A stretch of DNA of 64,000 nt from a virus. The position numbers and the translations under genes were made by a program. Of this stretch, positions 3,894-63,835 are shown piece by piece (the stretch's first letter is position 1; each line of letters starts with the position of its first letter). A model generated the notes under the pieces. The model did no database searches and was not told the origin of the DNA. It saw only the letters and a list, made by a program, of their open reading frames with translations. Location: positions 1-64,000 of the IMG/VR virus record IMGVR_UViG_3300042905_002966, one strand, 5' to 3'.

Positions 3894-4215
3894 CAGGGTA
3901 TTTATTATGGGGCATGAGTTTGTTATTGAACCTCTTCCAAAAGAATTATTTGATTATACTGACACATATGGAGATTGTTGCACTGATAAAAGAGTAATAA
4001 GAGTATATTGTGAGACGCATTTATCAGTAATGAGGGATACTTTATTGCATGAAATATTACATGGGGTTTGGTCACTACTGGGGCTGGAAAAAAGGGAAGA
4101 AGAGGAAAAGGCTGTAAACTCTATGGCTACTTTACTTATTGGATGTATTGATGATCCACGAAATAAAGAAGTTATAGATTTTCTAATAAATAATGCAACA
4201 ACAACAGATAATTAA
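3874..4215 (+). CDS. HExxH metallopeptidase-like protein
   Basis: 113 residues from the ATG at 3874, chosen because AAGGA (3861-3865) is eight bases upstream. An in-frame ATG at 3847 lies inside the previous gene and has no site. The zinc-peptidase motif HEILH is at 59-63, followed by an acidic helix (REEEEKA) that could supply the third ligand. The layout recalls small ImmA/IrrE-type or phage HExxH proteins. Substrate and role are unknown. It sits between the ERCC4 nuclease and the large terminase and overlaps the latter by 23 bases. Confidence 0.65.
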   Translation: MHMELPSRVFIMGHEFVIEPLPKELFDYTDTYGDCCTDKRVIRVYCETHLSVMRDTLLHEILHGVWSLLGLEKREEEEKAVNSMATLLIGCIDDPRNKEVIDFLINNATTTDN

Positions 4216-10401: not shown

Positions 10402-11400
10402 ATGAAAACAAGACCAACACCTGAGTTTATCGAATTGCTAAAGCGTTCGGGAAGCTCTGATAAGGTAGTCGCAATGGCCGCTCAAAGGGAAATCGCCAAA
10501 GCCCTTGAAACACCAATTCGTAAGGGTGTTTTATTTGGTGATGTTGTAACTTCGATTTTCGAAGCTATGCCACTAGAGCCGGGTGCTACACCTGAGTTCC
10601 CATTGGATCTACTTGCCCCCGGTACTGAGGCAGATCATGTTGCCTATACCAATCCCGGCAATGGTAGAATTCCAGAAAGACATGTCGAAGGTGATTATGT
10701 CATGGTAAATACTTATGGCATTAGTAGCTCAATCGACTTTCTTTTAAAGTATGCCCGTGAAGCTAACTGGAACGTAGTAGCTCGCGCTATGCAGGTTCTA
10801 GAAGCATCATTTGTTAAGAAGATCAATGATGACGGTTGGCACACACTACTCGCTGCTGCTGTTGACCGTAATATTTTAGTGTTCGACAATGATGCAGCTG
10901 GTGGTCAATTTACAAAGCGTCTTGTCAGCTTAATGAAGACAGTTATGAGAAGGAATGGTGGTGGTAACAGTGTTACTGCTCCCGGCCGTCTTACAGATCT
11001 ATACTGCTCTCCAGAAGCTGTCGAAGATATTCGTAACTGGGGTGTTGATCAGCTAGATGAAGTTTCTCGTAGAGAAATTTATGTAGCCGCCGACAATGGC
11101 CCAGCTATAACACGCATCTTCGGTGTAAATCTACACGATGTGTTTGAGTTTGGTGATGGTCAAGAATATCAAACATATTTCACAAGCGATCTCGGTGGCT
11201 CACTTGAGTCCAGCGACGTTGAACTTGTGATTGGTCTTGATCAGAATCAAAACGATAGCTTTGTAATGCCTGTTAAGAAAGAAGTTGAAGTCTATGAAGA
11301 TGAAAGTCTTCATCGTCATCAGCGTCAGGGTTACTATGGCTGGGCTGAAATTGGTTTTGGTGTGCTAGATAACAGACGAGTTCTCGCTGGCTCGTTCTGA
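10402..11400 (+). CDS. Major capsid protein, HK97-fold
   Basis: 332 residues, the right size and place. A helix-rich N-terminus (about 1-45) is followed by an extended loop region (GATPEFPLDLLAP) and a core with a spine-helix-like stretch near 150-175. The closing beta segment (YYGWAEIGFGVLDNRRVLAGSF) is typical of capsid proteins in phages of this kind. No long N-terminal delta domain is seen, in agreement with a separate scaffold. Codons are GC-rich for this genome: 34 of 60 bases at 10561-10620 are G or C, against 7 of 60 at 17761-17820. A strong AAGGAG site and a hairpin just after the stop fit a very abundant transcript. Confidence 0.85.
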   Translation: MKTRPTPEFIELLKRSGSSDKVVAMAAQREIAKALETPIRKGVLFGDVVTSIFEAMPLEPGATPEFPLDLLAPGTEADHVAYTNPGNGRIPERHVEGDYVMVNTYGISSSIDFLLKYAREANWNVVARAMQVLEASFVKKINDDGWHTLLAAAVDRNILVFDNDAAGGQFTKRLVSLMKTVMRRNGGGNSVTAPGRLTDLYCSPEAVEDIRNWGVDQLDEVSRREIYVAADNGPAITRIFGVNLHDVFEFGDGQEYQTYFTSDLGGSLESSDVELVIGLDQNQNDSFVMPVKKEVEVYEDESLHRHQRQGYYGWAEIGFGVLDNRRVLAGSF

Positions 11401-36600: not shown

Positions 36601-39600
36601 ACACAAGGATATAGCTATAATATTGGATTTACTTTAACTAGTGCTGATACAAAAAGCGAAATTGGTCAAATATCATGTATTATACTTGGTTCAGATTATC
36701 GTACAGTAAAACTTTTAGAAATTAACAGCAGTGGTAGCGTTGATTCATATAATGTAGACAATGATCCAACTCAAAGAATACCAGACGCACAGCACTATAA
36801 ATTACGCACCGGTTCATATGCCGGTGATGGGATTAATGAAGTAAAGTCTAGTATGTTTTTATCTGCTCAAAAAATTCTATTCAAAGATGGAACACTTATT
36901 TGGGGTGATCAGATACTATCAGAAAGCAAGTCTAAGATTAATATTTTGAGATACAACTACAATAATAATTCATTAACTCCTATTGGACAAATAACAAAAC
37001 AATTTACTACACCGCGTAGATCAGATGCAAAATTTGTTGGAGATGGGTTTGGATGGAATATTAGATACAATGATGGTATTCTTGTAACTAACTCAATGGT
37101 TACACAAAATGAATTTGGTCAAGATATAGCAACACTTCTTGATGGTTCTGCAATTGGCTCATATAGAGTTGATTCTTTATCCGTATTCAAGATTACAAAT
37201 CAAAACAATGCTGAGTTTCTACAAAATATTTTTCCATCTTTTAATGCCGGTGATGTTAGTGAAAAGTATACAGACAAATTTTTGATTGATTATCAAGATA
37301 GTCTATTAAATATTGGAAATATACATTATGATAATTTTACTTTACAGTCTAGAACTTGGAATGTTAGACTTGTAAACAGTTATGACGCTATAGATAGCAG
37401 AGTTATCTTAAGGGATCCAGTAGGATACTCTTTATTTGCTATAGATTATTCTTATAGTTCTAGATTTGGTTTTTCTACTTTAAATAGTAGTGCTTCATAT
37501 GATATATCACCATACTTATATTTTTCTGAAATATTTAAGGCTGGAGAAATATATTACGATTATTCAGATCATGGTTCTTTCTTGATTAGAGATACATCTA
37601 TCTTCAATCAAACCAGTAGTAATACTTTATCATTACAAAATAATTTAACTGTAACTCCAGTATTTTTCTTTAATATTCCAGAATCTAATATTGATGTATA
37701 TGGCAATTTAAATATTACATTAGTTTTTGATAATTTATCACGTAGATTTTTTGAAACAATTAATGTAAATAATTTTAGTAATAGAGAAACTATAATCGAT
37801 AGTTTTGCATTTGATAATTTATTACCACGTATTGTTCTGTATAAAAAAGACCCTAGACAAACAATAATACCAAATGGTGTAATTGGTAATACCACCACAA
37901 CTCCAACAACTGGCTTTGTCACTTTGCAAGATGGCAAGTTTGTATATAGCTCAACACACAGAAGAATAACTAATCCAAATGATGACTCAATTACTTGGAA
38001 ACAATCCGTGACACGTCCACCAATGTTTAGGGGTGGTGCGCATGATTTGCATTTTTATGGTGATCTTAGTGCATCATCTATAAAAGAATATAAAGCTACA
38101 TTATTAGGCGCTTTTCCAAACTTGATAGAAGCAATACCAACAGAATTACTTAATCATTATTATGGTGGTTTAATTACTCTTGGACAGCTATATGACGCAA
38201 CATATGACGTAAATACTAAACAAGGTTTAATATCGTATGTTTCTAATGATGTGATAAACTTATTACGAGACGATGGACAAGATGTTGCTAATGTGTCGAT
38301 GTATGGTACAATTATTGCCAATACTAATATAGCTCCAACAGATGATAATACTATTACATTCACTATACCATATAGTATATGGTCACAGTATATATATCAA
38401 GGTAATTTTCTTAAGTCAAGCAAAGACAATAGGCCATTTATTAATGATTTTACAAATATTAATCATGGTACAATATCTTCTACTACACCAAGTAGTAATT
38501 TATCAAATCCAATATCTGGTACATGGTCGCAAGGTTATATCAATGATATTAATCATGAGACTTATGATGTAGACAATATCTCATCTAATAAAACTCTTGC
38601 ATTGGGTATACTACTAGGCACAGTAGATAATGTTAATTATGCTGCTTCTAGTCCAATAGGTTCACAGTCGGCAGACGGTCCATTATTCAACTTTTTTAGA
38701 TCTGTTCCAGATAAACGCTTAAATATATATGATTATAAGTATTCATATAATACTGTTTTGGCAACTACATCTATAGAACAAAAATCAATTTATCCAGTAT
38801 TAAATAATTTGATCAATTTTGATTTTTCTGCTACCATATTAGATATTAGTGCAAATATAGAGTCTCGTAATATTGATAAAAGAAAAATGCAATGTGTATT
38901 CAATAAAATTGCATATTTTAAATATAATAACGCGGTTTATGATGACGCACAAAGAAATATACTAAACAATAATTTACGAATTGATAGATATTCTTTTGGC
39001 AAATATGAATTTGTGCCATTACCAGTTGGTATAACTAGAGATCGTAAATTACTTCTCACTGAGTACAACCAACCGGGCATTAGTAATCATCTATTTGGAC
39101 AAAGTAAAAATCCAATAATTAGAGTGGCTAAATCAAACACAGGATTTAGTTCTAACGATAAAGGAACCTTTAATAAATCAGTACAGATTATATCATCTGA
39201 TAGTATAGCTGGTATTGGCGAAAATATTAATACGTCAACTTATATTGATTTAAATGAAGACAAAGTACAAACTTATAATAGCATCAGCGGTGTTCTTGGA
39301 TCTGCTTATATTGGTGCAAATAATTTACTTGGGTCTATGGATATTCTTGACTTGGATTATTTACCATTATATATTGGCGCATTAAAACAAGAGATTTCTG
39401 CGACAACTCTGTTTATCAAAGATAAATCAAAGCGATTAGAAACCACATTATATGTAAATGGTTTGCAAAAAATTAATACACCAACAGCCTTTTCATTATT
39501 TATTGGTCAACCATTTATACAAACTGGCATTACTCTTAATATTGAGGCACCAAATTTTGAGTTTATGTCATTATTTACATATGAAGTTGCTCCATCGGCT

Positions 39601-42600
39601 ATTATGCCATTATCAATTACTACTCCAGACATTGATAATAGTCTCACGCTTACTTTTCAACCATTAGGCACTGGACAAATTCCATTAGTGGTTCTTGGAC
39701 CAGTTTTAGCACCATCAAGTATACCTTTAAATACTCGCGGTTTGGCATATAGCAACAATACATTTAGACTTGTGACTCGTGGTTTAGATTATGATTTTGG
39801 TGTTGCGAATTTAATTGTTAATGGTGTTACATCACAAAATAATGCTACAACTTTGGTTATGAATAGACCAGTAACAGATATTCATACATTAAATGTTGAG
39901 GGCGCGCAATTTGTTAATCAATCATTTACTTTATCATTTACTCCAACAATCGAGGTTATAACTACAGACGCACCACTGTTTATAGGTACACAGTTTGAAG
40001 CAGAATCTAAACACACTACATTAGCAATTATAGATACTGAAAGACCCATTAATCATCAAACCACATTATATATTGATGGTTTTATAGACTCTGCAAATAA
40101 TCTTAATAATGGAGAAAACAATTTTAATCTACAAAGAAATGAATCTATTGTAGACATTTCTCATTTACCAGAAACCTATGCCACAACCTTAACATATAAT
40201 AATAGCTCTACAACTACAAACTCATTAACCAGAGTTTCTTTAACTAGTAGTAATCAATTTTTACAAAAAACAAAATCGATTTCTGCGACAAATGTATATC
40301 TCGGTTCACAAAATAAGTTACTAGAAAGTAATAATGCGGCATACATTACACAGATCAGCGATGTTGACAATAATGCAACAAGAGCATTTTATCGTGACGA
40401 ATCTATAACAAATTTTGGGCAGTTGAATCACTTATTAAAACGCGATATATATGATTCTAATGGTAGATATTTTGTTCTTGGAAGTAAAAATGAAGATATT
40501 GCAGATATAGATATCTATGAAATAGTAGATAACAAGAATGTACAATTTATATCTAAAATTAGCATGGGCTTGGCAAAAGCTGTTCCCGGCACATCGGAAG
40601 CATCAGATTTATTATATGGTAAAAATGGTATAACTGATTTACCATTTGGTGATTCATTTGTCACTATTAGAAGACAATTAAAGTCATATTTCTCTGGCGT
40701 GTTTTCTAATTCTAACATTAATGATTCTTTATCTTCTATAGTTGTTAACGATTTGAAGATTTCTGATTTTAATACTTGTGCAATTTCTTTACGAGTAAGA
40801 CTGTATTATAGTGTTGGAACCACGAATGAAACAAAAACGTTCAATGTAATTATATTATTCAAACTGTCTGATTTACAGACAGGAACATCTAATGTTACAT
40901 CATTTGTAGGTCAAACAACTTATTATGTAGATCATTATCATTATTATATTCTACAAGAAAGTGGAAACGATCAAAGCAAATATTCCGCAGCATACAATCT
41001 TGCATTCTGTCAAGATGATTTATATTTCGAAAGACATAATGGACAATGGGGGCAAATTTGTAGATTGTTAGCTAGCGAAAATTATAGTTCATTACAAGTA
41101 GTTATAGATTATGCAGAACATCCAGATGTTCAATATTATACAAATACAAATAATTCACCATATATTTCTGATTCTAGAAAGAAAGCTGGTTTTGGTATTC
41201 CATTAAAGATATATAATGAATATCGTTCTGACAGTCATATTATGTTGATTGGCGCACAATTATTTGACCCATTTGTATTTAATACATTAACACAACCACA
41301 TAATCCAAATGCGATTGGTGCAGTTTATATATATCGTCTTCCAACTGGATCTTCTACTTGGAATTATGTTGGTGCCATGTATGGTAAAGGCAATACATCT
41401 TCCAATGTGATAGCAAATCTAAATAACTATACTAGTTCGGGAATCGAAGATAAAGAATATTGCTTATTTGGTTTTGATTTTGATTACATGGATGGTAATG
41501 CCGCGATATCTGAACCCGGTGGCTCTGGCTCTAATGAGATTAATGGTGGAAAAGTTTATTTATTTAATATTGAAGGCTCTAATATCGCTCTATTAGATCA
41601 GTATTCTATTAATGATATTTCTTTGCCGCTTGGTTATACATTAAATAGTCAAAATAATTTTGGCTCATATATAGTACTTATAGATAAAAATACACCGATA
41701 ACTTTTTCCAATTCTTCTGCTGGAAATGGATTGATACATAATTTGTCAAATGGCTCAACATTAGTTGCTAGTTTAGCTTATACTCAATCAGAATATACTA
41801 CTCTTAATGAAGCTAGAGCCAACATAGAAAACGAAACTAAACCATATGATCCAGTATTGGTCAACCCATCAATAACAACCAGATCTCAGTATGTATTATC
41901 TATGAAGAGGCTAAATTTTGGTAATTCAACTAGAAAGCTGGGCCTAGTAAGAGAATTTAGAACACGTAGCGATAATTCTAATTTCACATTTGATTTACAA
42001 AAAGTATTTATAATGGATGTTCAGCCAATTGGATTTACATTATTTATTGGCGGTCCACCGGCAAAAAACAATACTCTAACATTACAAACACTACCACATG
42101 AGATACTAAATGATACTTTATTAACCAGCATTTATGGTAAAGAAATTATATCTAGTGGATTAAGTTTAGTAGCTGCTAGTAATTTTGGCTTGGGCGATAT
42201 GCCGTTACATATAGAATATGTCAACGACAACGCAACTACTCTATATATTAGTTCGCAAATACAAATTAATTCTGATGAATTTACAACCAATATTACTGGT
42301 AAAGATATATATAACATCAATACTACACTATGGACATCATCAGCAATTAATAGCGCGTCTGGTATTAATTTAAATACTTATGGACAAAACATACGCACTA
42401 ATACAGCTAAATTGTATACTAGAGGATATACTAATGCAACCATAAATACAACACTAACAACTAGTGGAATATTTATGGACAATAATTCAGCTAGTTTAAT
42501 TGTAACAGGGCATATCAATAGAGCCACTGGTATAAATACAGTTATTGTTGGATATGATATAATTAATAATAGCGGCATGTTCTTTAGTACTAGCGGCGCT

Positions 42601-43227
42601 ATACTTGGCGACATATATAGAACAACACCACTATTTATTGGCAAAGACGCATACGCCAATAATGCAACATCAATATTTATTGACAGTTTTGTAGTTTCCT
42701 CTGGATCTGAATATAAGGCAGTAGGCAATACTCTGCACATCAACGCTAGACCATCGTCTGTTTATGACACATTTGATTCTCATTCGTTATATATAAACGG
42801 TCCAGATCGTGAATACTTAAACACAGATGCCACTATATTTATTTCTGCACCAATTCCAGAAATCTCAGAAGATGGCGCATACATACATTCTGGATATTTA
42901 ATAACAACAATTACTGGTAACAATGATGCAGGCTCATTTTTTGTCTCTGAAAAATATCAAACACTAAATGTTGTTGGCAGTATTGCGAATGCTAGTGGTA
43001 TGTCGCTTTATATGGAAAGACCAACTGCTAATGCGCTAGGACTATTTATTAAGGATTTAAATCCAACTTCTACAATTACTACAGCAATTAGTGGAGCATT
43101 TTATGGTAGTGGATCTACTGATTTGTGTGTATTAGGACCAACACCATCTACTGGAACTTTTTCGTTATACATTGAACAACCACAAAGCAATCTGACCACA
43201 CTAACTACTAGAGGTTATTTAGAGTAA
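33664..43227 (+). CDS. Giant tail-tip/adhesion protein, 3187 residues
   Basis: One of the longest genes in the window, starting on the tape-measure stop (TAATG). The N-terminal 1900 residues are beta-rich and aromatic without a domain I know. FG-containing blade segments typical of FG-GAP/integrin-type propellers appear near 1128 (FGWNIRYNDG), 2509, 2601 (FGFDFDYMDG) and 2665, with GAVYIYRL and GGKVYLFNIEG strands between. Two regions, about 1900-2070 and 2780-3187, consist of short strand repeats with a period near 15 residues (TTLYIDGF, PLFIGKDA, LYTRGYTN, LIVTGHIN), a likely beta-solenoid. The location after the tape measure, where tail-tip proteins lie, and the adhesive folds suggest a long distal tail structure that contacts the cell. 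No enzymatic motif was seen. Confidence 0.7.
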   Translation: MQDYFKYDKIQTGTSLFMKSDSDGNTDKEKRALPLGIKTIGEGIKQITNWNHISNSIDSNKGIRFEDSQPNTLLYSVKNRIATSYEYTNRINLGVNDGIISPDIKIPLAQSITNDKQNKVSFIDSWSVSDINIVDDIAFVSYEDYSDLNREDLELGQITLYQPYRYQSSLGYDTITTNYFRDYDASLVFQNNQLPLMHKVKSIYGPTESLDISYRLSNRFATYDNTILKVEFNDPSLPKKTLYFTYGGCLRNTMTFADYPTANTIRYCNNYDLSTGERFDNTFCPVNYLNFADGDYAGEFFVVTYSTRKNILYSNGGAFGEASNINESDFVEVDDNAITTIQLSVNALLNYFQLNTQGSGTSLPDLDPQTISQIFTNIGLIEGIVYTSHSAKVTLIKLQPARKCGKVDIYVRKSGIVSGFTGNRFTSPAHSLKNHDIIKIDSALFDGEQTGAIDIHPLNGEKFVKYIDDNTFELYDDQFLESPSSANNLKSVDGIQWCCIGNVNGTFGQGWSYYKTLFSPTGRNGYMSFTNRDYSFRFASNLDLNIGPSSFITDKRISDASLNSDLTSWDRENSIKSIVLDLSEDIDIYEEIVSEFFTTGSNWFIPTLTSNKTVFGKLISEFITSIPNKIFGKSAFGVPHKGSQELYPYHSQTELGKYNTDSDSFELNSGPYLSAYDLSGPYLGNKFGCSLDVKFSHNIGDSKIYNIVVGEKGSDVSIDLFGCQANEIKIDGGVIPYSQESTNADIFSIFKQRIVPYFAPHGKVHVLTMTVDKYNRITDISHKNTIFGDGYSLLSYNGSFPFKSHYPLIYMMDQFMGPYIDFHAGIANTITYKANGIDGKIITVNEIGTVPSTTLYWYRAAIANWFGPNIYDYYSNSTINENLSTLYRDYLIPDLNRNYISTEPIFNKNRSYFGESTISSTYTAYPIIDRFGLGTNSKSQLHIVPWVDSFGKSVCIGEKTTNGNLPIFSSSTVRSNINVTQGYSYNIGFTLTSADTKSEIGQISCIILGSDYRTVKLLEINSSGSVDSYNVDNDPTQRIPDAQHYKLRTGSYAGDGINEVKSSMFLSAQKILFKDGTLIWGDQILSESKSKINILRYNYNNNSLTPIGQITKQFTTPRRSDAKFVGDGFGWNIRYNDGILVTNSMVTQNEFGQDIATLLDGSAIGSYRVDSLSVFKITNQNNAEFLQNIFPSFNAGDVSEKYTDKFLIDYQDSLLNIGNIHYDNFTLQSRTWNVRLVNSYDAIDSRVILRDPVGYSLFAIDYSYSSRFGFSTLNSSASYDISPYLYFSEIFKAGEIYYDYSDHGSFLIRDTSIFNQTSSNTLSLQNNLTVTPVFFFNIPESNIDVYGNLNITLVFDNLSRRFFETINVNNFSNRETIIDSFAFDNLLPRIVLYKKDPRQTIIPNGVIGNTTTTPTTGFVTLQDGKFVYSSTHRRITNPNDDSITWKQSVTRPPMFRGGAHDLHFYGDLSASSIKEYKATLLGAFPNLIEAIPTELLNHYYGGLITLGQLYDATYDVNTKQGLISYVSNDVINLLRDDGQDVANVSMYGTIIANTNIAPTDDNTITFTIPYSIWSQYIYQGNFLKSSKDNRPFINDFTNINHGTISSTTPSSNLSNPISGTWSQGYINDINHETYDVDNISSNKTLALGILLGTVDNVNYAASSPIGSQSADGPLFNFFRSVPDKRLNIYDYKYSYNTVLATTSIEQKSIYPVLNNLINFDFSATILDISANIESRNIDKRKMQCVFNKIAYFKYNNAVYDDAQRNILNNNLRIDRYSFGKYEFVPLPVGITRDRKLLLTEYNQPGISNHLFGQSKNPIIRVAKSNTGFSSNDKGTFNKSVQIISSDSIAGIGENINTSTYIDLNEDKVQTYNSISGVLGSAYIGANNLLGSMDILDLDYLPLYIGALKQEISATTLFIKDKSKRLETTLYVNGLQKINTPTAFSLFIGQPFIQTGITLNIEAPNFEFMSLFTYEVAPSAIMPLSITTPDIDNSLTLTFQPLGTGQIPLVVLGPVLAPSSIPLNTRGLAYSNNTFRLVTRGLDYDFGVANLIVNGVTSQNNATTLVMNRPVTDIHTLNVEGAQFVNQSFTLSFTPTIEVITTDAPLFIGTQFEAESKHTTLAIIDTERPINHQTTLYIDGFIDSANNLNNGENNFNLQRNESIVDISHLPETYATTLTYNNSSTTTNSLTRVSLTSSNQFLQKTKSISATNVYLGSQNKLLESNNAAYITQISDVDNNATRAFYRDESITNFGQLNHLLKRDIYDSNGRYFVLGSKNEDIADIDIYEIVDNKNVQFISKISMGLAKAVPGTSEASDLLYGKNGITDLPFGDSFVTIRRQLKSYFSGVFSNSNINDSLSSIVVNDLKISDFNTCAISLRVRLYYSVGTTNETKTFNVIILFKLSDLQTGTSNVTSFVGQTTYYVDHYHYYILQESGNDQSKYSAAYNLAFCQDDLYFERHNGQWGQICRLLASENYSSLQVVIDYAEHPDVQYYTNTNNSPYISDSRKKAGFGIPLKIYNEYRSDSHIMLIGAQLFDPFVFNTLTQPHNPNAIGAVYIYRLPTGSSTWNYVGAMYGKGNTSSNVIANLNNYTSSGIEDKEYCLFGFDFDYMDGNAAISEPGGSGSNEINGGKVYLFNIEGSNIALLDQYSINDISLPLGYTLNSQNNFGSYIVLIDKNTPITFSNSSAGNGLIHNLSNGSTLVASLAYTQSEYTTLNEARANIENETKPYDPVLVNPSITTRSQYVLSMKRLNFGNSTRKLGLVREFRTRSDNSNFTFDLQKVFIMDVQPIGFTLFIGGPPAKNNTLTLQTLPHEILNDTLLTSIYGKEIISSGLSLVAASNFGLGDMPLHIEYVNDNATTLYISSQIQINSDEFTTNITGKDIYNINTTLWTSSAINSASGINLNTYGQNIRTNTAKLYTRGYTNATINTTLTTSGIFMDNNSASLIVTGHINRATGINTVIVGYDIINNSGMFFSTSGAILGDIYRTTPLFIGKDAYANNATSIFIDSFVVSSGSEYKAVGNTLHINARPSSVYDTFDSHSLYINGPDREYLNTDATIFISAPIPEISEDGAYIHSGYLITTITGNNDAGSFFVSEKYQTLNVVGSIANASGMSLYMERPTANALGLFIKDLNPTSTITTAISGAFYGSGSTDLCVLGPTPSTGTFSLYIEQPQSNLTTLTTRGYLE

Positions 43228-54941: not shown

Positions 54942-55716
54942 TATTTATCTCCAATTCAATAAATCTTTGACCTTTAGGTGGAAACTTATTTTCAATACTG
55001 GATATGTGATCTAATACCAATTTGCACAACTTATTACCAATAGATCTTGTCATATGTTTACAAAGATATTTTATTCTAATAACACAATATCCATGTGTTA
55101 ACAATAAACCATTTTTTCTTTCATCAGATTTAATAATTTTTTGAAGCTTATCTTCGCCCCATAATGGAAGAAAATGCTGTGGCCCATCTATCTCTATTAT
55201 AGTGCGAAGTTGTGGCAAAAACAAATCTATTTCAAAATCTCCCGGTATGAGATTATTCTTGTGCAACATAATATCATAACCAAGTTTTTCTAATTTAATT
55301 CTCAATATTTTTTCCGCCTTAGATCCTTCAATTGATGCCTGACGCAATGCTCGTCCAGCCATCTCTTGTAGTTCTCTTTTTTTAATAGCCGACATTTCAT
55401 CCCATCGTTTTTTAACCTGTGAACAAAAATCATCTTTTTTGGATTTTGGCATCTCTTTCCAGTTTTGTCTTATTGCTATGCCAATCTTATCTTTTTCTTG
55501 TTCTGTTCTTTTTTTTCCTCTAGTGGGATGTTTTATTCTACCGCTTTTTAGAGCTAATGATTGAGCTTCAGATTTATCTCGTAATTGTTGTCCGTTCTTT
55601 TTGAGAATACGTTCAATTTTCTTTGGATAAGTATTTAATTCTTTTGCTATACTACACGTACTCTTATTTTTAATAACGTATTGTTCTACAATATATTCTT
55701 CGTTTAGATCAGACAT
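54934..55716 (-). CDS. Vsr/DUF559-like endonuclease with HTH
   Basis: 260 residues from the ATG at 55716 (AGGA about ten bases upstream). A longer start at 55773 would run into the next gene. Residues 10-45 form a helix-turn-helix (IKNKSTCSIAKELNTYPKKIERIL), followed by a basic, helical spacer. Residues 130-215 are a PD-(D/E)xK-type core: E135 in SKAEKIL, D164 in DFEIDLF, E175 and D177 with H181 in EIDGPQHF. This is the layout of DUF559 and very-short-patch-repair-like nucleases, including some phage homing nucleases (I-Bth0305I type). It may be a homing endonuclease or a mismatch nickase. Its overlap with both neighbours argues it belongs to the operon. Confidence 0.65.
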   Translation of the reverse strand: MSDLNEEYIVEQYVIKNKSTCSIAKELNTYPKKIERILKKNGQQLRDKSEAQSLALKSGRIKHPTRGKKRTEQEKDKIGIAIRQNWKEMPKSKKDDFCSQVKKRWDEMSAIKKRELQEMAGRALRQASIEGSKAEKILRIKLEKLGYDIMLHKNNLIPGDFEIDLFLPQLRTIIEIDGPQHFLPLWGEDKLQKIIKSDERKNGLLLTHGYCVIRIKYLCKHMTRSIGNKLCKLVLDHISSIENKFPPKGQRFIELEINNE

Positions 55717-56182
55717 TAGAATAATCCTGTTGAGTAAGAGAAAGTAACTGACTAACATTCCAGTTGTCAACAATTCCTACTGTTTTCTTATTGCAAAAAT
55801 TGTATATCATAGCCTCATGTGACTCACTACGGGCAATGATTTTTAATCTTGAATCACGTAATATATTTGTTATAGCGGAATATTTTGATGGATACGTTAA
55901 CCATTCTAGATTCCATAAGTATAAAAATTTATTTGCATTATTATTAGATTTTAATAAAATACTAGCTTCATCTATAGTTGTAGCAATTGCCGTATGGTGA
56001 TATCCAGACAAAAATGATACGCTTTTGCATGAAAACATAGCTGGTATTACTGGAACAGAAGCTCTTTTAAAGAAAACCGATACACATAAATCATTTTGTG
56101 ATAATGTTTTATTAAATTCTTTTATGAGATAAAATGACTTTTGTGATGGCCCAAGGTTGTCAACAATAGCCGCTATGTTCAT
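55709..56182 (-). CDS. Glycosyltransferase-region protein, unknown
   Basis: 157 residues. A Rossmann-like start (NIAAIVDNLGPSQKSFYLIKEFN) is followed by a strand-helix pattern with KFLYLWNLEWL and RLKIIARSESH. It resembles the N-terminal half of a GT-B transferase, but no donor site is present. It may be a truncated transferase or a binding subunit of a two-part one. It is in line with genes for glycosyltransferases and overlaps the nuclease gene by eight bases. Confidence 0.45.
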   Translation of the reverse strand: MNIAAIVDNLGPSQKSFYLIKEFNKTLSQNDLCVSVFFKRASVPVIPAMFSCKSVSFLSGYHHTAIATTIDEASILLKSNNNANKFLYLWNLEWLTYPSKYSAITNILRDSRLKIIARSESHEAMIYNFCNKKTVGIVDNWNVSQLLSLTQQDYSNV

Positions 56183-56187
56183 AATAA

Positions 56188-56871
56188 TTACCTTTCTATC
56201 GTACCGCTAAACGATATGTTGCTGAGTTGATTACATAAATATGGATAAGTGTGATAAACATTAAAATTGTTTAAATGAAAAATATGATTTAGATGCCAAT
56301 CAATCGGTAAAGCAAATGGCACTATTGTATCTAATGTTTTTTGTGCTGATTTCTTATTATATATTAGTGATGATGTTGTATTAGTTGCTGGATGCCCTGA
56401 CAAGATATACCCATTAAATATTTGCTTAACCGGTAATATATTGTGACTAAAAGCGCCGCCTATAAATATTATGTCCCAATCGCTTGGAGCATCAGATATA
56501 ACATCATTTAATGTAATACTATTTTCATAAAAATTACAATCATCTTCAAGAACTAGTAATTCATCGTAATCGCTTTCAAGAAACAATTCTAATGATTTTA
56601 TATGCTTAATACATAGAGATATTGATGCTAACGAAAGCTCCCTATACACAGAATATGGGGACATGCTATGTTTGAGCGTTACATTTGAGTGCTTGTCAGT
56701 TGTGGCCTTATCATTAATATAATATTTATCAATTATATCTTTTGTTAGTTGTTCTTTGTCAAAATCTGTTATAAAACTATAGTCTTGTATATTTTGTTTT
56801 TCAAGCTGGTCCTCTATGTGTTTTTTTCTATCTGTTAATTTTTGATAGTGCAATATGTGAGTTTTAAGCAT
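56188..56871 (-). CDS. Glycosyltransferase, GT25-like
   Basis: 227 residues. Features of GT25 (LPS galactosyltransferase LgtB type): an early segment with DRKKHIEDQLEKQNI, the strand-helix SLASISLCIKHIKSLELFL, and the acidic metal site LVLEDDCNFY near residues 106-115. A GAF near 140 and a C-terminal DWHLNHIF follow. It would add a hexose from an NDP sugar to a glycan. There is no membrane anchor. It overlaps the next upstream gene by eight bases. Confidence 0.72.
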   Translation of the reverse strand: MLKTHILHYQKLTDRKKHIEDQLEKQNIQDYSFITDFDKEQLTKDIIDKYYINDKATTDKHSNVTLKHSMSPYSVYRELSLASISLCIKHIKSLELFLESDYDELLVLEDDCNFYENSITLNDVISDAPSDWDIIFIGGAFSHNILPVKQIFNGYILSGHPATNTTSSLIYNKKSAQKTLDTIVPFALPIDWHLNHIFHLNNFNVYHTYPYLCNQLSNISFSGTIER

Positions 56872-57679
56872 TGATCTTCTCCAGCATATAGTTAGACAAA
56901 CCTTCGGGAGAGCAATAATAGTTATGCCATTTTCTTCCAGACATAGATATTGTGGACATTAAGTTCTTTTTATTAAGAACAGATCTAATAGTATCCGATA
57001 TTTCATTAACCCAGTTATTTATTGGTATAAATGGGGCAGTATTATAAAAGTCAACATTTGGCTGTGGAACAGATAAAACAACACACCCACACATCATAGC
57101 TTCAAAAAACCTAAATGTTTCAAAACTAGCCGATCCGGTTGGAACAAGTGCTATTTTGGTATTATTCATTATCGCACAATAGTCTTCTATTTTAGCCCCA
57201 TTATTCCATCCATTGTACCATAATTCCTTGTATTTGACACCATTTAAAGTCTTGGCTATCTCTATAGCATTTTTAAAATCTGTCCTTCTGTATGGGTCAT
57301 ATTGGCCCATCCAGCACCAATCGTACTCCCTATCATGTATATTTTTGCTAAAATCGGTAAATCCATTTAACTCACACAATGGCAGGGCAAATATCCGTGG
57401 TATATTTTCTACAGAATTAACATCACGATAATTTGACATTGGTATATATTGTTTAAAAATATAAGCAACATCTGGATCATTAATCTGTTGTGGTATTTTA
57501 TGTGTTTCGTCTGATGTTAGTATTAATATCTTTTTATGTTTTGTTTTTGGCGTTGCATCACTCCAAACCTGTAAGACAAAAGAAAAATCATCTTGTAATT
57601 GTTTGGAAAGTATCTCTGCCGCCTTTTGGTATACATGAGAGTCTGGATTTTTATCAATTAGATTAATTATTTCAGACAT
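56864..57679 (-). CDS. Glycosyltransferase, GT-B fold
   Basis: 271 residues. The C-terminal donor domain is recognisable: IALVPTGSASFETFRFFEAMMCGCVVLSV (residues about 170-200) is the GT-B sugar-nucleotide site with the E of the EAM(A/M)xG motif. The N-terminal half is short, with WCWMGQYDPYRR in the middle, so this is a compact exostosin/GT1-type transferase. The sugar is not predictable. It is coupled to the dehydratase gene upstream by an eight-base overlap. Confidence 0.68.
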   Translation of the reverse strand: MSEIINLIDKNPDSHVYQKAAEILSKQLQDDFSFVLQVWSDATPKTKHKKILILTSDETHKIPQQINDPDVAYIFKQYIPMSNYRDVNSVENIPRIFALPLCELNGFTDFSKNIHDREYDWCWMGQYDPYRRTDFKNAIEIAKTLNGVKYKELWYNGWNNGAKIEDYCAIMNNTKIALVPTGSASFETFRFFEAMMCGCVVLSVPQPNVDFYNTAPFIPINNWVNEISDTIRSVLNKKNLMSTISMSGRKWHNYYCSPEGLSNYMLEKINA

Positions 57680-58847
57680 TATTTCCGTACTCGTTTATTA
57701 GATTGCATATTTTATGTATATCTTTTTCGGTCAAATCTTGATGATTAGGCAAGTACATACCATAATTATCAATCAAATTTGAATTTTTGCTCTTATACTC
57801 TTTATACTTTTTTTTCCAAGCTGGCTGTGTTCCCATGCTTCCAGATATTAGTGGCCTACATTCTATATTATTTGTTTTAAATATTTGATACATTATATCT
57901 TTATTTTTTACAATTAGCGGGTATCCCATATTCGATATAACATTTTGATCTTTTGTGGCTATTGGCTTCCATAAGTCTTTTCGAATACAATTTACATATT
58001 GAAAATAATTTTTCTGCCTCTTTGTTACTATGTCTGATATTTTATCCATTTGGTTAATTCCAATAAACGCCTGTAGATCAGTTGATCTTAAATTAAATCC
58101 CATATGATAAAATGTATATAATGATGATATAGAATTTTCTGGTATATTATTAGATGCTCTATAGAAAGCTTTTGTGTTGCTGTCTAAGTCCCTATCCCAT
58201 CCATGACTTCTAATCATTTTTATAATATTTGCTAGGTCTTTATTGTTTGTACATACCATTCCGCCTTCAATTGTTGATATGTGATGCCCAAAATAAAATG
58301 AGAAAGATGAAGCTAATCCAAAAGATCCAAGCTTTTTACTATTTACCTCAGAGCCAAGGCTTTCACATGTATCCTCAATTATTAATATATTTTTTTCGTT
58401 GCATAGATCAATAATCTTTTGAATATTAGAATTTAAACCAAGCACATGTACTAGCATAATTGCTGCTGGATTTTCTTCTTTAATAATTCTTTCTAGATCT
58501 TCTATGTCAATGCCAAGGTTATGCATATCACAGTCACACAGTATTGGAATCAATCCAAGCTGCATTGCTGGAAAAACTGTTGTAGACCATGAAATTTGTG
58601 GAACTATTATTTTGTCATTTTTTAACATTCCAGATTGGAGTAAACCAGAAACTATTAATAGATTCGCAGAAGAACCAGAATTACAATAGATAGAATGTTC
58701 ACATCCAATAAATTCAGAAAATTCTTTTTCAAACTTAATTGTTTGTTCGCCCTTTGTTAGCTGTGGCATGTTTTGAAGCCAAAACGCCAACTTTTGTATA
58801 TCATATTTGTCTATAATATCTGAACACAATTTTATTGGTTTATTCAT
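57672..58847 (-). CDS. colD: ColD-like GDP-4-keto-6-deoxymannose 3-dehydratase
   Basis: 391 residues, a complete DegT/DnrJ/EryC1-fold PLP enzyme. The usual Schiff-base lysine is absent. In its place stands FYFGHHISTIEGG with H188 and H189; D159 (IIEDTCESLGS) should hold the PLP ring nitrogen. ColD, the 3-dehydratase of GDP-colitose synthesis, is the known enzyme of this family with histidine at position 188 in an almost identical motif, and E1 of ascarylose synthesis has a similar change. Thus the enzyme probably removes the C3 hydroxyl of GDP-4-keto-6-deoxymannose, the product of Gmd encoded at 1890-2888, with glutamate as amino donor. A plain aminotransferase is unlikely without the lysine. 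It is translationally coupled to the GT10 gene. Confidence 0.85.
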   Translation of the reverse strand: MNKPIKLCSDIIDKYDIQKLAFWLQNMPQLTKGEQTIKFEKEFSEFIGCEHSIYCNSGSSANLLIVSGLLQSGMLKNDKIIVPQISWSTTVFPAMQLGLIPILCDCDMHNLGIDIEDLERIIKEENPAAIMLVHVLGLNSNIQKIIDLCNEKNILIIEDTCESLGSEVNSKKLGSFGLASSFSFYFGHHISTIEGGMVCTNNKDLANIIKMIRSHGWDRDLDSNTKAFYRASNNIPENSISSLYTFYHMGFNLRSTDLQAFIGINQMDKISDIVTKRQKNYFQYVNCIRKDLWKPIATKDQNVISNMGYPLIVKNKDIMYQIFKTNNIECRPLISGSMGTQPAWKKKYKEYKSKNSNLIDNYGMYLPNHQDLTEKDIHKICNLINEYGNNV

Positions 58848-59761
58848 TCTACAATCGTTTCTAATTTAGAGAGTATAAATTCTGGAGTGGCACATTCTGG
58901 TATTTTATTATCTGGAAAACATGGTTGTGTTTGTATATCGTAGAATAATTCTTCATTTTTGTATATCTGAAAAACACGATCATGCACTTCATCTAGATTA
59001 TCAAACCTTCTCACATGTATAAACCCATCTTTATTAAACTCTTCTTCTACATCAATTCCGCCCCAATAAATTGGTATTGACCCCTCAGACATTGGGTGTA
59101 TTAATTTTTCTGTAATCCATCCCGGTAAATCACTATTATCATATGTTAAATGAAATTTAAAATTCTTTATAAAATCTATTTTATCTTTTTCGTCCCCATT
59201 CAGTTTTGGGCAGGTTTGACAAAAATTGCCACGGCTTTCTACCAATAGACCCTTTGAGGTTGCAAAATTTATGAATTGTGGATAAGCTGTAGCACGATAT
59301 CCTAAAGAATTATTTGTTAAAGCTGAACAAAATTTATCTTTTGTTTGTTTTTCTTTTGGCGTTATTAGTTTTTTGGGGCTAACTAAATAGGCTTGATTTC
59401 TACCGGGATGATATTGGTTATTAAACCAATCTATATACATAGACCATAATGGTATTCTTATATTTTTGTCATGGTTAAACTTGCATGATGTTATAGAAAA
59501 ATCACATTCTGTATAATTTGGATCTCCAATTCTATCCAGTGACTCTACATACCAGTGAATAATTTTAGATTTACCCCTAAATGCTCTAGTAACATTTTTA
59601 GCCGCTACACTTTCTGTATTTTGGCATATAACGATATCTGGAGTTTCGTTTTGTAAGTTAGCAATAACATCATACTTTAATTTTAGTGTGTTGGTGATAA
59701 GATTATCATGAGGGAAAAATCCTCCCCACATATTATAAAAATTAATCTTGATTTGCCTCAT
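58844..59761 (-). CDS. GT10-family fucosyltransferase-like protein
   Basis: 305 residues. The GT10 signature lies at 201-235: FKFHLTYDNS, then GWITEKLIHPMSEGSIPIYWGG, close to the (F/Y)xLxFENS...YxTEKl...AxxxGxVPVxxG of alpha-1,3-fucosyltransferases. These enzymes use GDP-fucose or related GDP-6-deoxy sugars. The overlap of four bases with the ColD-like gene suggests that its donor could be the GDP-3,6-dideoxy sugar made by this pathway instead of GDP-fucose. There is no membrane anchor. A cysteine pair (FCQTCP) precedes the donor domain. Confidence 0.78.
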   Translation of the reverse strand: MRQIKINFYNMWGGFFPHDNLITNTLKLKYDVIANLQNETPDIVICQNTESVAAKNVTRAFRGKSKIIHWYVESLDRIGDPNYTECDFSITSCKFNHDKNIRIPLWSMYIDWFNNQYHPGRNQAYLVSPKKLITPKEKQTKDKFCSALTNNSLGYRATAYPQFINFATSKGLLVESRGNFCQTCPKLNGDEKDKIDFIKNFKFHLTYDNSDLPGWITEKLIHPMSEGSIPIYWGGIDVEEEFNKDGFIHVRRFDNLDEVHDRVFQIYKNEELFYDIQTQPCFPDNKIPECATPEFILSKLETIVE

Positions 59762-60518
59762 TTAAAATTCTTTCTTTCCAGTATGTCATTGTTAATGTTT
59801 TAGATTTAAATAGCGAATAATCAAAATTGTCAATTATATTTTTTAAAAAATCCTCTGTTACTTCTTTCCAATCGTCTATATAAACTATTGGTAGCTTTTC
59901 ATTAAAAAAATGTGTTATATGTTTTTTTACTATTGGTATACATCCAAGATATAGAGCTTCCCATACTCTATGCGTATCTATGCCATTTCCGCGTGGGCAT
60001 AGGCAATATTTATATGTGCATAAATTATTAACATATGAATCAAATGCTATACCATTTATACATCTATACATATCAGCATTTATTTTTTTCATCCAAATAT
60101 CGTAACAAAGATTATATCTTTCGGATGGAAAAGTATCTGGATTAAATTGTGCAAAAATTCTATTTTTTCTCTCTTGTTTGCTATATATTGCTTTATTAAT
60201 TAAGTTTCTTTTATTAGGATGCCAATGCTCATTTTCTAATCCTATTGGAATAGGTGAGATCTTTTCATGGACATAGTTAACATTTGTACCGTACCACTTA
60301 ATTAAGTTAATTGGTATATCTGTGCGTTCAATAGAATGGTCACTATTATGTGTCACTAATATAAATTTTATATTTGTATATTGCGCTATTCTATTCAATG
60401 CTTGTTGATATTCGTGCGTATTAGCATAAATAATTACTTTATCCTTATTTGGGATTGCATCTTGCCAAGTACATTCACAGACTTTTTTAAAACCATTCCC
60501 ATCTATGTAGTCTTGCAT
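59742..60518 (-). CDS. Exostosin/GT47-like glycosyltransferase
   Basis: 258 residues. The C-terminal half has the exostosin-type donor motif YCLCPRGNGIDTHRVWEALYLGCIPIV (about 170-195), with the E of RVWEAL and a following IVYIDDW. The N-terminal part has ANTHEYQQALNRIA. It probably transfers a sugar from an NDP donor to the growing glycan. Overlaps of 20 bases downstream and 16 bases upstream place it firmly in the operon. Confidence 0.72.
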   Translation of the reverse strand: MQDYIDGNGFKKVCECTWQDAIPNKDKVIIYANTHEYQQALNRIAQYTNIKFILVTHNSDHSIERTDIPINLIKWYGTNVNYVHEKISPIPIGLENEHWHPNKRNLINKAIYSKQERKNRIFAQFNPDTFPSERYNLCYDIWMKKINADMYRCINGIAFDSYVNNLCTYKYCLCPRGNGIDTHRVWEALYLGCIPIVKKHITHFFNEKLPIVYIDDWKEVTEDFLKNIIDNFDYSLFKSKTLTMTYWKERILNEANQD

Positions 60519-61348
60519 ATAAATTGTCCCAAATTTTTACTATGTATATGTAGATTGAAAATAGGATTATGTTCCGTATATGGCTTAACATCAAATACTG
60601 GATGTATTTCATTTAGTAGAATTTTTTGCCCTATATAATGTGATGGATCTACAAAACCAGCCCCATGACCATTATTTGTGCCACCTAAATACTGACCATA
60701 AGAACCCGGATCATATATAAAACCATTATAATTTTGAAATATTGGAAAACATTTAACTAAATTGTTTCTTAGGGCCATATTTAATAGTGACATTTCACTA
60801 ATATGATCATAGCCAAACGATAATAAATTTTGCTCCCCATGTTCTAACAACATAATAAAATACGAACATAAATCAAACAACTTTGCTGGCGTTGGAAAAT
60901 ATGAAAATGCAAATGTTGTATGTGTTAATGACATTGGTGTAATAATTACATTTTGAGAAACTTCTACATCTTTTAAATCATGGTATATTAAAACATCATT
61001 CTCAAAATGGAATACTTCATCCATTGTATCTCTTAGCATTAGTTCTAATATATAGAATATTCTTTCAGCCGTTCTATGCCAAAACAAATCTGGACTAGGA
61101 TATGTAGTATTTGGTGTGCCATGACGCCTAAATGAACATACTTGATTAAATCTTTTTAGTGTTTGCCCTTCAGCTAGTGACTCTTGATCAACCCACTTAA
61201 TATTTAACTTATCAAAAAATTCTTGTTTATATTTACAAATAAAATAAATCTCAATTTCTGGATTAAAATGTCTAGCTTGTTCTAAAGATAGTGCAACATA
61301 ATCTGGAACATCGTTTTTGTCTGATATGAATGTATTTATGAGTTTCAT
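60503..61348 (-). CDS. Putative GT-A glycosyltransferase
   Basis: 281 residues. An N-terminal strand pattern (LINTFISDKND, EIEIYFICKYKQEFFDKL) and an acidic metal-site candidate VFHFENDVLIYHDL near residues 110-124 (END in place of DxD) suggest a GT-A fold of the kind in capsular and LPS transferases. A C-terminal domain with NNGHGAGFVDPSHYIG follows. It stays unassigned to a CAZy family. It overlaps the gene downstream by 16 bases. Confidence 0.55.
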   Translation of the reverse strand: MKLINTFISDKNDVPDYVALSLEQARHFNPEIEIYFICKYKQEFFDKLNIKWVDQESLAEGQTLKRFNQVCSFRRHGTPNTTYPSPDLFWHRTAERIFYILELMLRDTMDEVFHFENDVLIYHDLKDVEVSQNVIITPMSLTHTTFAFSYFPTPAKLFDLCSYFIMLLEHGEQNLLSFGYDHISEMSLLNMALRNNLVKCFPIFQNYNGFIYDPGSYGQYLGGTNNGHGAGFVDPSHYIGQKILLNEIHPVFDVKPYTEHNPIFNLHIHSKNLGQFICKTT

Positions 61349-61349
61349 G

Positions 61350-62057
61350 CTATGTCCAAGTGTGTACAGTAAATAAGTCTATTGGAAGTGTTTTACATAG
61401 CTCTTTAGCAATTATTAATTCTTGTGTATCCCATGAAGTATATTTACCAAGAGTTTTAGTCTTTGTCAATCTAAATGTATACATCCCACTAAAGTTATGA
61501 GCCACAAAATTACCATATGTTTCAAATTCAGAAAATAAATATCTATCATCGGACAGATAGGTATTTAAGTGTTCGACAAATCTATTTATTTCTGGTAGCA
61601 TTATTCTACAAAGCTGTTTGTCAAATATCATGAAGTCATTAATAAAAGTATGATTAGCCCACTCAGTTATTCCAAAATATGATTTCATAAAATTGAAATA
61701 TGGTTCATGATGCTGCGCCCTATCGCTGATAAAGAATGTTTTTCCAGTAAAATGTATTGGACGATTAAAAATAACATCACTATCTATGCACATGTAGATA
61801 TTATTTGCTGTAAAATCTTGATATAACTTAATTAGCTGTTGATAAATCCAGTTTGGTCTTTTATAATGTATTTGTTCAATATCTACGTTTATTGCTTCTT
61901 TATCGCTAATTGATATTAGTCCATCAATAGAAACAGCATCTGGAGTAACCAGATATGTATGCATCGGAGATGGATCTAGATTACGTAAAGAATCTAGACA
62001 AAATGAAATCTTGTTATAGTCTTTTGGATGTGATAAAATTATAGCATCATATATCAT
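61350..62057 (-). CDS. Putative glycosyltransferase, DUF6492-like
   Basis: 235 residues. It has the GT-A plan: YDAIILSHPKDYNKISFCLDSLR at the N-terminus and the acidic site YMCIDSDVIFNRP (DSD, about residue 91-95). The middle is aromatic and Trp-rich, with a conserved-looking ITEWANHTFINDFMIFD. It recalls the DUF6492-type transferases of phage and bacterial surface-sugar clusters. Acceptor and donor unknown. Confidence 0.6.
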   Translation of the reverse strand: MIYDAIILSHPKDYNKISFCLDSLRNLDPSPMHTYLVTPDAVSIDGLISISDKEAINVDIEQIHYKRPNWIYQQLIKLYQDFTANNIYMCIDSDVIFNRPIHFTGKTFFISDRAQHHEPYFNFMKSYFGITEWANHTFINDFMIFDKQLCRIMLPEINRFVEHLNTYLSDDRYLFSEFETYGNFVAHNFSGMYTFRLTKTKTLGKYTSWDTQELIIAKELCKTLPIDLFTVHTWT

Positions 62058-62898
62058 AGTTTATGTCGCTCAATATATCAATTTCTTTATGTGGACAATC
62101 AATGTTATCAAAATTTAATGTACTAAGTTGTATTCTATATCCATTCTTGTATAGAGTAGATAATTTTTCTGGACTATAGTTAAAATATGATCCAGCTTTA
62201 TTTGATAGATGAGTATTTTGTATTCTATTATTTGGACTATTAACTACTGTGCTATTTTTTTGACAAACAATAATATTTGGTGTGACTGCCCAATATCTTT
62301 GCATTTGTGTTTCTAATTCGTTTGGAGATTGTTTAAAGTGATATTTCTTATCTAAATAAGACAATTCATCAAATATTTGAATTAGATCGGCTTTACGAAA
62401 AATATGACCATCTAAAGAATGTGAATAACTCCAATAAGAACCATAGTTATAAGCTGTTTTTGGGATTAATAAATAATCTGTAGTTTCAAAACAAATTCTC
62501 GGAATATCATCAATTACTTCATGTAAGTGTTCTCTTTTAATTGTATTCAAACCTAGTCTTAATGATATAGTACAAAATTCTTCATGATTAAATATTTGAT
62601 CACATATTATGTGGTTTGTATTTTTATATACAATATCATCATCTGTAAATAAACAGATATACTGGTTAACGGCATTTTTACATAGGTCTAAACAGTCATG
62701 GTATATAGAAGACGTTTGTTGAAAAATATTTATATCTTGATGTTCATTGCTTAATATATCAAGCATCTTACTATAATTATCATCATATTTTTCTAAAACT
62801 AATATTTGATTACAATCAAGAAAATTTCTTTTAATTGATTTAATGCATAGATCTAATTGTAGTGGGCGATTTTTACTAAAAATTATTGATGTAATCAT
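62047..62898 (-). CDS. GT2-like glycosyltransferase
   Basis: 283 residues from the ATG at 62898, which has GAGGG eight bases upstream; in-frame ATGs at 62913 and 62931 lack a site. The GT2 start (ITSIIFSKNRPLQLDLCIKSI) and metal site LFTDDDIVYK (DDD) are clear. The rest is less conserved. It overlaps the Fcl-like gene by 23 bases and the next gene by 11. It would transfer a hexose or deoxyhexose from an NDP sugar. Confidence 0.7.
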   Translation of the reverse strand: MITSIIFSKNRPLQLDLCIKSIKRNFLDCNQILVLEKYDDNYSKMLDILSNEHQDINIFQQTSSIYHDCLDLCKNAVNQYICLFTDDDIVYKNTNHIICDQIFNHEEFCTISLRLGLNTIKREHLHEVIDDIPRICFETTDYLLIPKTAYNYGSYWSYSHSLDGHIFRKADLIQIFDELSYLDKKYHFKQSPNELETQMQRYWAVTPNIIVCQKNSTVVNSPNNRIQNTHLSNKAGSYFNYSPEKLSTLYKNGYRIQLSTLNFDNIDCPHKEIDILSDINYDI

Positions 62899-63835
62899 TA
62901 AATCTACCCTCATTTTGATTAAACCACTCAACGGTATATTTTATACCATCCATAAAGGATGTTTTGGCTTGAAAGCCCAGCAACGACTTCGCCCTGTTAG
63001 TATCTAAACATCTCCTTGGTTGTCCATCTGGAAAATTTGAATTAAATTGTATGCTTCCAGTATATCCCATTTCTTTTCCAATAAGCGATGCCAGATCTCT
63101 AATATTAATTTCATTACCAGTTCCTATATTAATAGGTTCTGGAGACACATTAGCCGTAATGGATTTTACTATGGCTTCTGCACAATCATCTACATATAAA
63201 AATTCTCTACTAGCGTTACCAGTACCCCATATTTCTACTACATCTTCTTTTTTGATTATTGCTCGCTTATATTTCAAGATAAGAGCTGGTATAACATGAC
63301 TAATTCTTGGATCAAAATTATCATTTGGTCCATACATATTTACTGGAATTAAATTGACACAATTAAAATTATATTGTTGTTTATACGCTATAAGCATTTG
63401 CATTAATGTTTTTTTTGCTATCCCGTATGGAGCATTGGTTTCTTCTGGAAAACCATTCCATATATCATCTTCATTAAATGGAACTGGAGTAAATTTGGGA
63501 TATGCGCATACTGTTCCGGCCATTACGAAATTTTCTAACTTGTCATATTGTCTACAGGCTTCTATTAAATTAACACCCATTATTAAATTTTCATAAAAGA
63601 ATAAACCCGGATTTTCTTTATTTGCTTGAATACCCCCAACTCTTGCCGCCAAGTGTACAACAATATCTGGTTGATAATGAGCCAACATACAATCAACATA
63701 TTTCTTATTTGTTAGATCCCACTTCGCTTTTCCATTTGCTGGAAGTATATCGTATTTAGTTTCTTCTGATAGTTTTTTAATTACAGCAGTGCCAAGAAAT
63801 CCATTTGCTCCAGTTACTAATACTTTTTTAGACAT
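62876..63835 (-). CDS. GDP-fucose synthase-like 3,5-epimerase/4-reductase (Fcl or ColC-like)
   Basis: 319 residues, the normal length for Fcl/WcaG. The NAD(P) loop is VTGANGFLG (7-15). Catalytic positions line up with E. coli Fcl at an offset of one: T108 (Ser in most), C110 of VCAYPK, Y137/K141 in APYGIAKK, and H180 in DPRISHVIP. The enzyme turns GDP-4-keto-6-deoxymannose into GDP-L-fucose, or, in colitose synthesis, the ColD product into GDP-L-colitose. I cannot decide which from sequence alone. With Gmd and the ColD-like dehydratase in the same genome, the ColC role is as likely. Confidence 0.85.
   Translation of the reverse strand: MSKKVLVTGANGFLGTAVIKKLSEETKYDILPANGKAKWDLTNKKYVDCMLAHYQPDIVVHLAARVGGIQANKENPGLFFYENLIMGVNLIEACRQYDKLENFVMAGTVCAYPKFTPVPFNEDDIWNGFPEETNAPYGIAKKTLMQMLIAYKQQYNFNCVNLIPVNMYGPNDNFDPRISHVIPALILKYKRAIIKKEDVVEIWGTGNASREFLYVDDCAEAIVKSITANVSPEPINIGTGNEINIRDLASLIGKEMGYTGSIQFNSNFPDGQPRRCLDTNRAKSLLGFQAKTSFMDGIKYTVEWFNQNEGRFNDYINNF

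Follow-up and report, generated by a model that had tools for sequence, protein, structure and literature searches.

A predicted route to GDP-colitose in a large phage: a ColD-like 3-dehydratase encoded together with Gmd and an Fcl-type enzyme

3,6-Dideoxy sugars are surface sugars of a small number of bacteria and are thought to be typical of O-antigens. In Escherichia coli O111, the colitose pathway is encoded by manB, manC, gmd, colC and colD in one cluster. ColD (WbdK), the GDP-4-keto-6-deoxy-D-mannose 3-dehydratase of E. coli O55/O111, requires glutamate and uses no iron-sulphur (Fe-S) cluster; the known 3-dehydratases are distinguished by a histidine at this site (position 188 in ColD), where transaminases need a lysine (PMC8987622). 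Among viruses, large lipopolysaccharide-type clusters have been noted in cyanophages since 2010 (PMC3037559), a GDP-fucose pathway is encoded by chlorovirus PBCV-1 (cited in PMC9614988) and GDP-fucose genes are encoded by cyanophage S-SCSM1 (PMC9602691). In the latter two, viral Gmd and an epimerase/reductase feed viral glycosyltransferases, and no 3-dehydratase is described in the available parts of these accounts. IMG/VR virus record IMGVR_UViG_3300042905_002966 encodes a Gmd (P0001), an Fcl-type epimerase/reductase (P0003) and many glycosyltransferases, together with a His188 dehydratase (P0002). The window analysed here is bases 1-64000 of this 103,630-base record, which is incomplete. The gene set is real and, as read from its sequence, biochemically coherent. 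The phage probably diverts host GDP-mannose to GDP-L-colitose (GDP-3,6-dideoxy-L-xylo-hexose) through P0001, P0002 and P0003, with a GT10 glycosyltransferase as the likeliest user of the product and a glycan most likely carried on virion proteins.

P0002 has the DegT fold, and its best match among solved structures is E. coli ColD (2gms; phmmer against PDB sequences, E-value: 1.7e-57; 30% identity). The motif GHHISTIEGG (context FGHHISTIEGG) starts at residue 187, and its first histidine, His188, falls in the ColD His188 column of the phmmer alignment; the entries 3b8x (H188N) and 2r0t (His188 replaced) differ exactly there. The original prediction had proposed that the catalytic lysine is replaced by histidine at this position, as in ColD, and that a lysine at the true active site would speak against it. 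The alignment shows histidine rather than lysine, in register with ColD, and a Lys-type transaminase (perosamine synthase) identity is rejected on the same ground. The predicted coordinates of P0002 and P0003 also stand, but both genes lie on the minus strand, the plus strand being full of stop codons. His188, Asp159, Ser183, Trp87, Asn252 and Arg254 are invariant across 24 aligned relatives, and His188 is kept in every viral relative examined. E1/RfbH (CDP-4-keto-6-deoxyglucose 3-dehydrase) shares the fold and the catalytic histidine but has cysteines holding a [2Fe-2S] cluster; in those columns P0002 shows L, S and a gap, and it is without the insert seen in E1. All His-type enzymes, P0002 included, have one additional cysteine column in common. 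By the rules of PMC8987622, a histidine without the Fe-S motif would make P0002 a ColD-type 3-dehydratase. Its classification as a His-type sugar 3-dehydratase that lacks an Fe-S cluster, and whose closest solved relative is ColD, is supported at the sequence level.

An AlphaFold2 model of P0002 (predicted local distance difference test score 91.9) has one poorly modelled segment, the loop 190-192 beside His188. When this model was compared with the PDB using Foldseek, ColD (2r0t) ranked first (E-value: 2.6e-33), followed by GDP-perosamine synthase, and E1 scored nearly equally. Because ColD and GDP-perosamine synthase both act on GDP-4-keto-6-deoxymannose, the model supports this sugar as a substrate. 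It is very improbable that P0002 is instead transaminase-like or inactive, such that no deoxygenation takes place and the genome makes GDP-fucose only. Such a reading could draw on the low identity to ColD (just the 30% given above) and on the absence of the GHH(M/I)STIEGG clade, to which P0002 belongs, among the solved structures found; to our knowledge, no enzyme of this clade has been assayed. It is opposed by the invariance of His188 and of the pyridoxal phosphate-pocket and dimer-contact residues across the family, and by the histidine that distinguishes known 3-dehydratases from transaminases (PMC8987622).

In a DegT tree of 99 proteins, the split between Lys types and the rest is fully supported, E1 is a separate group and P0002 lies inside the large GHH(M/I)STIEGG clade, which spans bacteria, archaea and phages. 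The tree places E. coli ColD as a possible sister to this clade (Shimodaira-Hasegawa-like approximate likelihood ratio test, 93). ColD resembles P0002 in fold, His188, absence of Fe-S cluster residues and presence of Gmd in the genome, but P0002 belongs to a separate, larger clade. Membership of P0002 in E1/RfbH is rejected (P0002 + E1 clade, p 0.0004), the Fe-S cysteines being missing as well.

The enzymes predicted to act before and after P0002 also retain their catalytic residues. P0001 is 44% identical to E. coli Gmd and keeps all four residues of the S/T-E-Y-K set; its C-terminal loop is shorter, and its TIGR01472 score of 398.9 bits is slightly below the cut-off of 415. No other 4,6-dehydratase, including the CDP- and dTDP-glucose types, is found in the record, in which P0001 and P0003 are the sole epimerase-family proteins. 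A CDP- or dTDP-glucose 4,6-dehydratase is likewise lacking among the epimerase-family matches of sister record G035, which reaches ~30 kb further. The one extra short-chain dehydrogenase/reductase (SDR) of G035 was considered as a second dehydratase from the unsampled part of the genome and rejected, as it reads as GalE-like (Pfam shows general SDR families only). P0003 is 35.7% identical to Fcl (GDP-L-fucose synthase) of E. coli K-12 and 32.9% identical to ColC (GDP-L-colitose synthase) of E. coli O111, the source also of the ColD reference. Its NF047922 score of 291.7 bits is under the curated 500-bit cut-off, and as a divergent relative it is filed as Fcl-type only. P0003 keeps the equivalents of Thr/Ser107 (T107), Cys109, Tyr136, Lys140 and His179 (E. 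coli Fcl numbering). Epimerisation and reduction by P0003 are therefore plausible, from the kept SDR T/S-Y-K and the epimerase Cys109/His179. These residues cannot tell ColC from Fcl, because Fcl has the same set.

The sequence shows to which enzyme families the three proteins belong, that their catalytic residues are present and that another 4,6-dehydratase is absent; the substrate, order of steps, product, GT10 donor and acceptor are inferred. Host GDP-mannose would be converted by Gmd to GDP-4-keto-6-deoxymannose. P0002, with pyridoxamine phosphate regenerated from glutamate and with no Fe-S partner, would then remove the 3-hydroxyl to give GDP-4-keto-3,6-dideoxymannose. P0003 would epimerise C5 and reduce C4, forming GDP-L-colitose. 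This product would be taken by the GT10 transferase of the same gene run, and an island of ~15 or more glycosyltransferases would build a cytoplasmic glycan, whose acceptor is most likely virion proteins. GDP-colitose, which the original prediction had named as the outcome of these three core steps, is the likeliest output; others are possible, as the Gmd and Fcl pair of the sister phages points to GDP-L-fucose.

Linkage in other genomes is consistent with a shared pathway. A species-genome scan gave at least 80 cellular loci of the GHH(M/I)STIEGG clade. Among the matches listed, 46 of the 80 cellular loci with a His188 enzyme encode Gmd and/or Fcl, in 35 cases no more than 300 bp away, and at three archaeal loci Gmd and the dehydratase share one long open reading frame (ORF). 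These fused ORFs are from Pacearchaeota and Nanoarchaeota (L071 6548-8878, L089 6903-9233 and L104 7953-10397), and their product is predicted to be a bifunctional maker of GDP-4-keto-3,6-dideoxymannose. In viruses, Gmd or Fcl lies beside the dehydratase at 18 of 19 loci, the exception (L008) having its gene 354 bases from the contig end. As many viral loci are near-copies, they represent about five independent groups. If the proposed pathway is correct, the His-type dehydratases of this large and uncharacterised clade, which are encoded by bacteria, archaea and phages and in some cases are fused to Gmd, would be probable makers of GDP-3,6-dideoxyhexoses.

The closest viral precedents are the cultured cyanophages S-CAM7 and ACG-2014f, in which gmd, fcl and the dehydratase gene stand in that order, with a glycosyltransferase gene (GT11 by annotation in S-CAM7) after them. 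Their dehydratases carry the histidine, are 30-33% identical to P0002 and are deposited as CDP-4-keto-6-deoxy-D-glucose-3-dehydrase and aminotransferase. As in the present record, all three enzyme types are phage-encoded; theirs, however, are contiguous within a polysaccharide cluster, and they encode a bacterial-type Fcl whereas P0003 belongs to a phage clade. The earlier statement that no phage-made dideoxyhexose is known is thus correct as regards the interpretation and incorrect as regards the genes. A phage-made 3,6-dideoxyhexose was not reported in the literature found on colitose and phage or on dideoxyhexose and virus, in a search that left most subscription journals outside. Phage nucleotide-sugar pathways, including that for GDP-fucose, are already known, and it is the route to a 3,6-dideoxy sugar that would be new. 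Phages would then make sugars thought typical of bacterial O-antigens, and S-CAM7 and ACG-2014f would be isolates allowing direct assay.

Several observations weigh against the route to GDP-L-colitose. A grouping of ColD with E1 is not rejected (approximately unbiased [AU] test, p 0.27), so "ColD-like" refers to residues and context rather than to a firm common clade. Within the 40-50% subclade of P0002, Gmd or Fcl is found at just 15 of 35 cellular loci among the matches listed; some of the remaining loci have a short SDR and some a CDP-glucose 4,6-dehydratase, as at SAR11 locus L051, where it lies by the dehydratase (TIGR02622, 414 bits; cut-off 278). With some subclade loci lacking Gmd and Fcl and a SAR11 group having the CDP-glucose enzyme, membership in the family does not by itself reveal the nucleotide carrier. 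These loci and the ColD + E1 grouping, like the best NCBIfam label of P0002 (RfbH, with a score well below the cut-off), would fit a 3-dehydratase that acts on a different nucleotide sugar, such as host-supplied CDP-4-keto-6-deoxyglucose, and is unconnected to Gmd and Fcl. This is improbable: neither the record nor its sister has a CDP- or dTDP-glucose 4,6-dehydratase, and P0002 lacks the E1 Fe-S cysteines and is outside the SAR11 branch in the DegT tree.

P0003, called ColC-like in the original prediction, is not so by descent. Although it shares the SDR family and catalytic residues of ColC and Fcl, the clade that it forms with 20 phage sequences and a small number of sequences from uncultured archaea and bacteria lies outside the clade containing both E. 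coli enzymes, and grouping with ColC is rejected (AU test, p 0.0001). Six related phages (terminase 53-78% identical) have the Gmd and Fcl pair but no His188 enzyme. No hidden His188 enzyme was found in them by alignment, all their DegT proteins with a readable active site being Lys-type. The ancestral product of the phage pair was therefore probably GDP-L-fucose. Two products might still be made in parallel, with Gmd and Fcl yielding GDP-L-fucose, the His188 enzyme diverting part of the flux to a 3,6-dideoxy sugar and GT10 acting as a fucosyltransferase; the dideoxy sugar would be colitose if the intermediate is a substrate of Fcl, and would otherwise arise by way of a host reductase. The pairs in the sister phages, the location of Fcl in the syntenic core and the GT10 relatives found beside Fcl where the dehydratase is lacking all favour such a scheme. 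It is nevertheless rather unlikely, as a single Fcl would need to act on two intermediates and the dehydratase and Fcl would compete for the same keto sugar.

For the GDP-L-colitose route, gene location and supply are further difficulties. Gmd is far from the genes for P0002 and P0003 and adjoins the terminase region, here and in related phages. ManB and ManC were not found in the incomplete record, as had been predicted; the E. coli O111 pathway, in contrast, has these genes, gmd, colC and colD in one cluster. For ManC, PF00483 had no match in the record by genome search, and by direct scan one nucleotidyltransferase at ~97-98 kb scored 24.8 bits. Two MobA-like nucleotidyltransferases in the record were considered and are not ManC-like. 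The export route, the acceptor and the host are all putative.

The P0002 gene lies in a run of glycan genes (Table 1). The GT10 neighbour named in the original prediction is real, and it is the likeliest user of the pathway product, with GDP-colitose or GDP-fucose as candidate donor. GDP-fucose is possible because GT10 relatives (34-36% identity) are encoded by sister phages without the 3-dehydratase. No flippase- or polymerase-type protein with multiple membrane spans is found in the record; several hydrophobic segments are present in just one product, a 2565-amino acid protein encoded in the structural region. Many glycosyltransferases without such a protein favour a cytoplasmic target, for example virion proteins, over O-antigen conversion. 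Virion proteins are glycosylated in mycobacteriophages (Freeman et al. 2023, as cited in PMC12619734).

Table 1. Coordinates of the genes and motif discussed, in window positions (aa, amino acids; E, E-value).
Feature	Position	Strand	Evidence or remark
Gmd, GDP-mannose 4,6-dehydratase, 332 aa (P0001)	1890-2888	+	TIGR01472 398.9 bits
Terminase large subunit	4193-6172	+	phrog_2 E 1.9e-23; 53-78% identity in related phages
Major head protein	10402-11400		
Small island protein, no family	55709-56182	-	46-52% relatives in sister phages
GT25-type transferase	56188-56871	-	PF01755 E 1.3e-6
Glycosyltransferase (Glyco_trans_1_2)	56864-57679	-	PF13524 E 2.2e-6
Predicted ColD-like PLP/PMP (pyridoxal/pyridoxamine phosphate)-dependent sugar 3-dehydratase, 391 aa (P0002)	57672-58847	-	PF01041 E 2.8e-71 (DegT fold)
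Motif GHHISTIEGG, residues 187-196	58260-58289	-	His188 codon 58284-58286
GT10 (alpha-1,3-fucosyltransferase-type) transferase	58844-59761	-	PF00852 E 5.9e-14, PF18025 E 1.6e-5
Exostosin/GT47-like transferase	59742-60518	-	PF03016 E 2.7e-8
Island protein without Pfam match	60503-61348	-	52% relatives in sister phages
DUF6492 protein	61350-62057	-	PF20102 E 5.7e-7
Putative GT2 transferase	62047-62931	-	PF00535 E 0.013 (weak); 30-44% syntenic relatives, adjoining Fcl in sister phages too
Predicted Fcl-type GDP-4-keto-6-deoxymannose C3/C5-epimerase + C4-reductase, 319 aa (P0003)	62876-63835	-	phmmer, GDP-L-fucose synthases E 9e-65; candidate last step

The record represents a tailed phage, as a terminase large subunit and a major head protein are encoded. 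An identical P0002 gene is present in three further IMG/VR records, with island DNA identity of 99.99-100%, and the Fcl half of the island is syntenic in ~10 related phages; an artefact or contamination is rejected on these grounds. In related phages, as in the window, a DNA polymerase III-like gene is followed by glycan genes, Fcl and the same next gene. The island past this conserved stretch varies among them, and the P0002 gene is in the variable part. The simplest history would be a late addition of the 3-dehydratase to a GDP-fucose pathway already long present in these phages. A broader proposal is more tentative and on present evidence doubtful: a family of large planctomycete phages would glycosylate its own virions with a multi-sugar glycan, assembled in the cytoplasm by means of a conserved glycosyltransferase island, and this lineage would have swapped fucose for colitose via the 3-dehydratase, giving the first phage-made 3,6-dideoxyhexose, an outcome reached separately in cyanophages.

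The source is probably a large freshwater-type phage of planctomycetes. A DUF1501 gene lies amid glycosyltransferase genes at 101.5-102.8 kb of the record, on the minus strand (L004 6538-7809); up to three DUF1501 copies are present in sister records (G035, G036, G023 and G020), and one sister record has a DUF1559 prepilin-like gene (L159 3689-4621). Both families are typical of Planctomycetota, and their presence in the phage and its sisters suggests a planctomycete host. The structural region contains two very long ORFs (25967-33664 and 33664-43227, encoding 2565 and 3187 amino acids).

Other loci have further sugar genes. At the SAR11 loci L051 (5008-9167), L052, L053, L057 and L058, Lys-type and His188-type DegT enzymes are encoded close together; in L051, genes for a sugar nucleotidyltransferase and the CDP-glucose 4,6-dehydratase precede both. 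Freshwater cyanophage-like contigs (L009 and L011-L019; for example, L019 8959-20758) encode Gmd, a His188 dehydratase, a GDP-mannose-3,5-epimerase-like SDR, another His-type dehydratase (E1-like, with Cys), an acetolactate-synthase-like thiamine pyrophosphate enzyme and a PanB-like protein, a set possibly directed at a yersiniose-like branched-chain dideoxy sugar. OR851175.1 (L028), a contig of 2570 bases deposited as a Salmonella phage, has an E1/RfbH-type gene and resembles a fragment of a host O-antigen locus. The 642-kb phage record LR756502.1 (L024 14023-31083) encodes Fcl and a His188 dehydratase; 6 kb further along it has an E1-type dehydratase gene and additional sugar genes.

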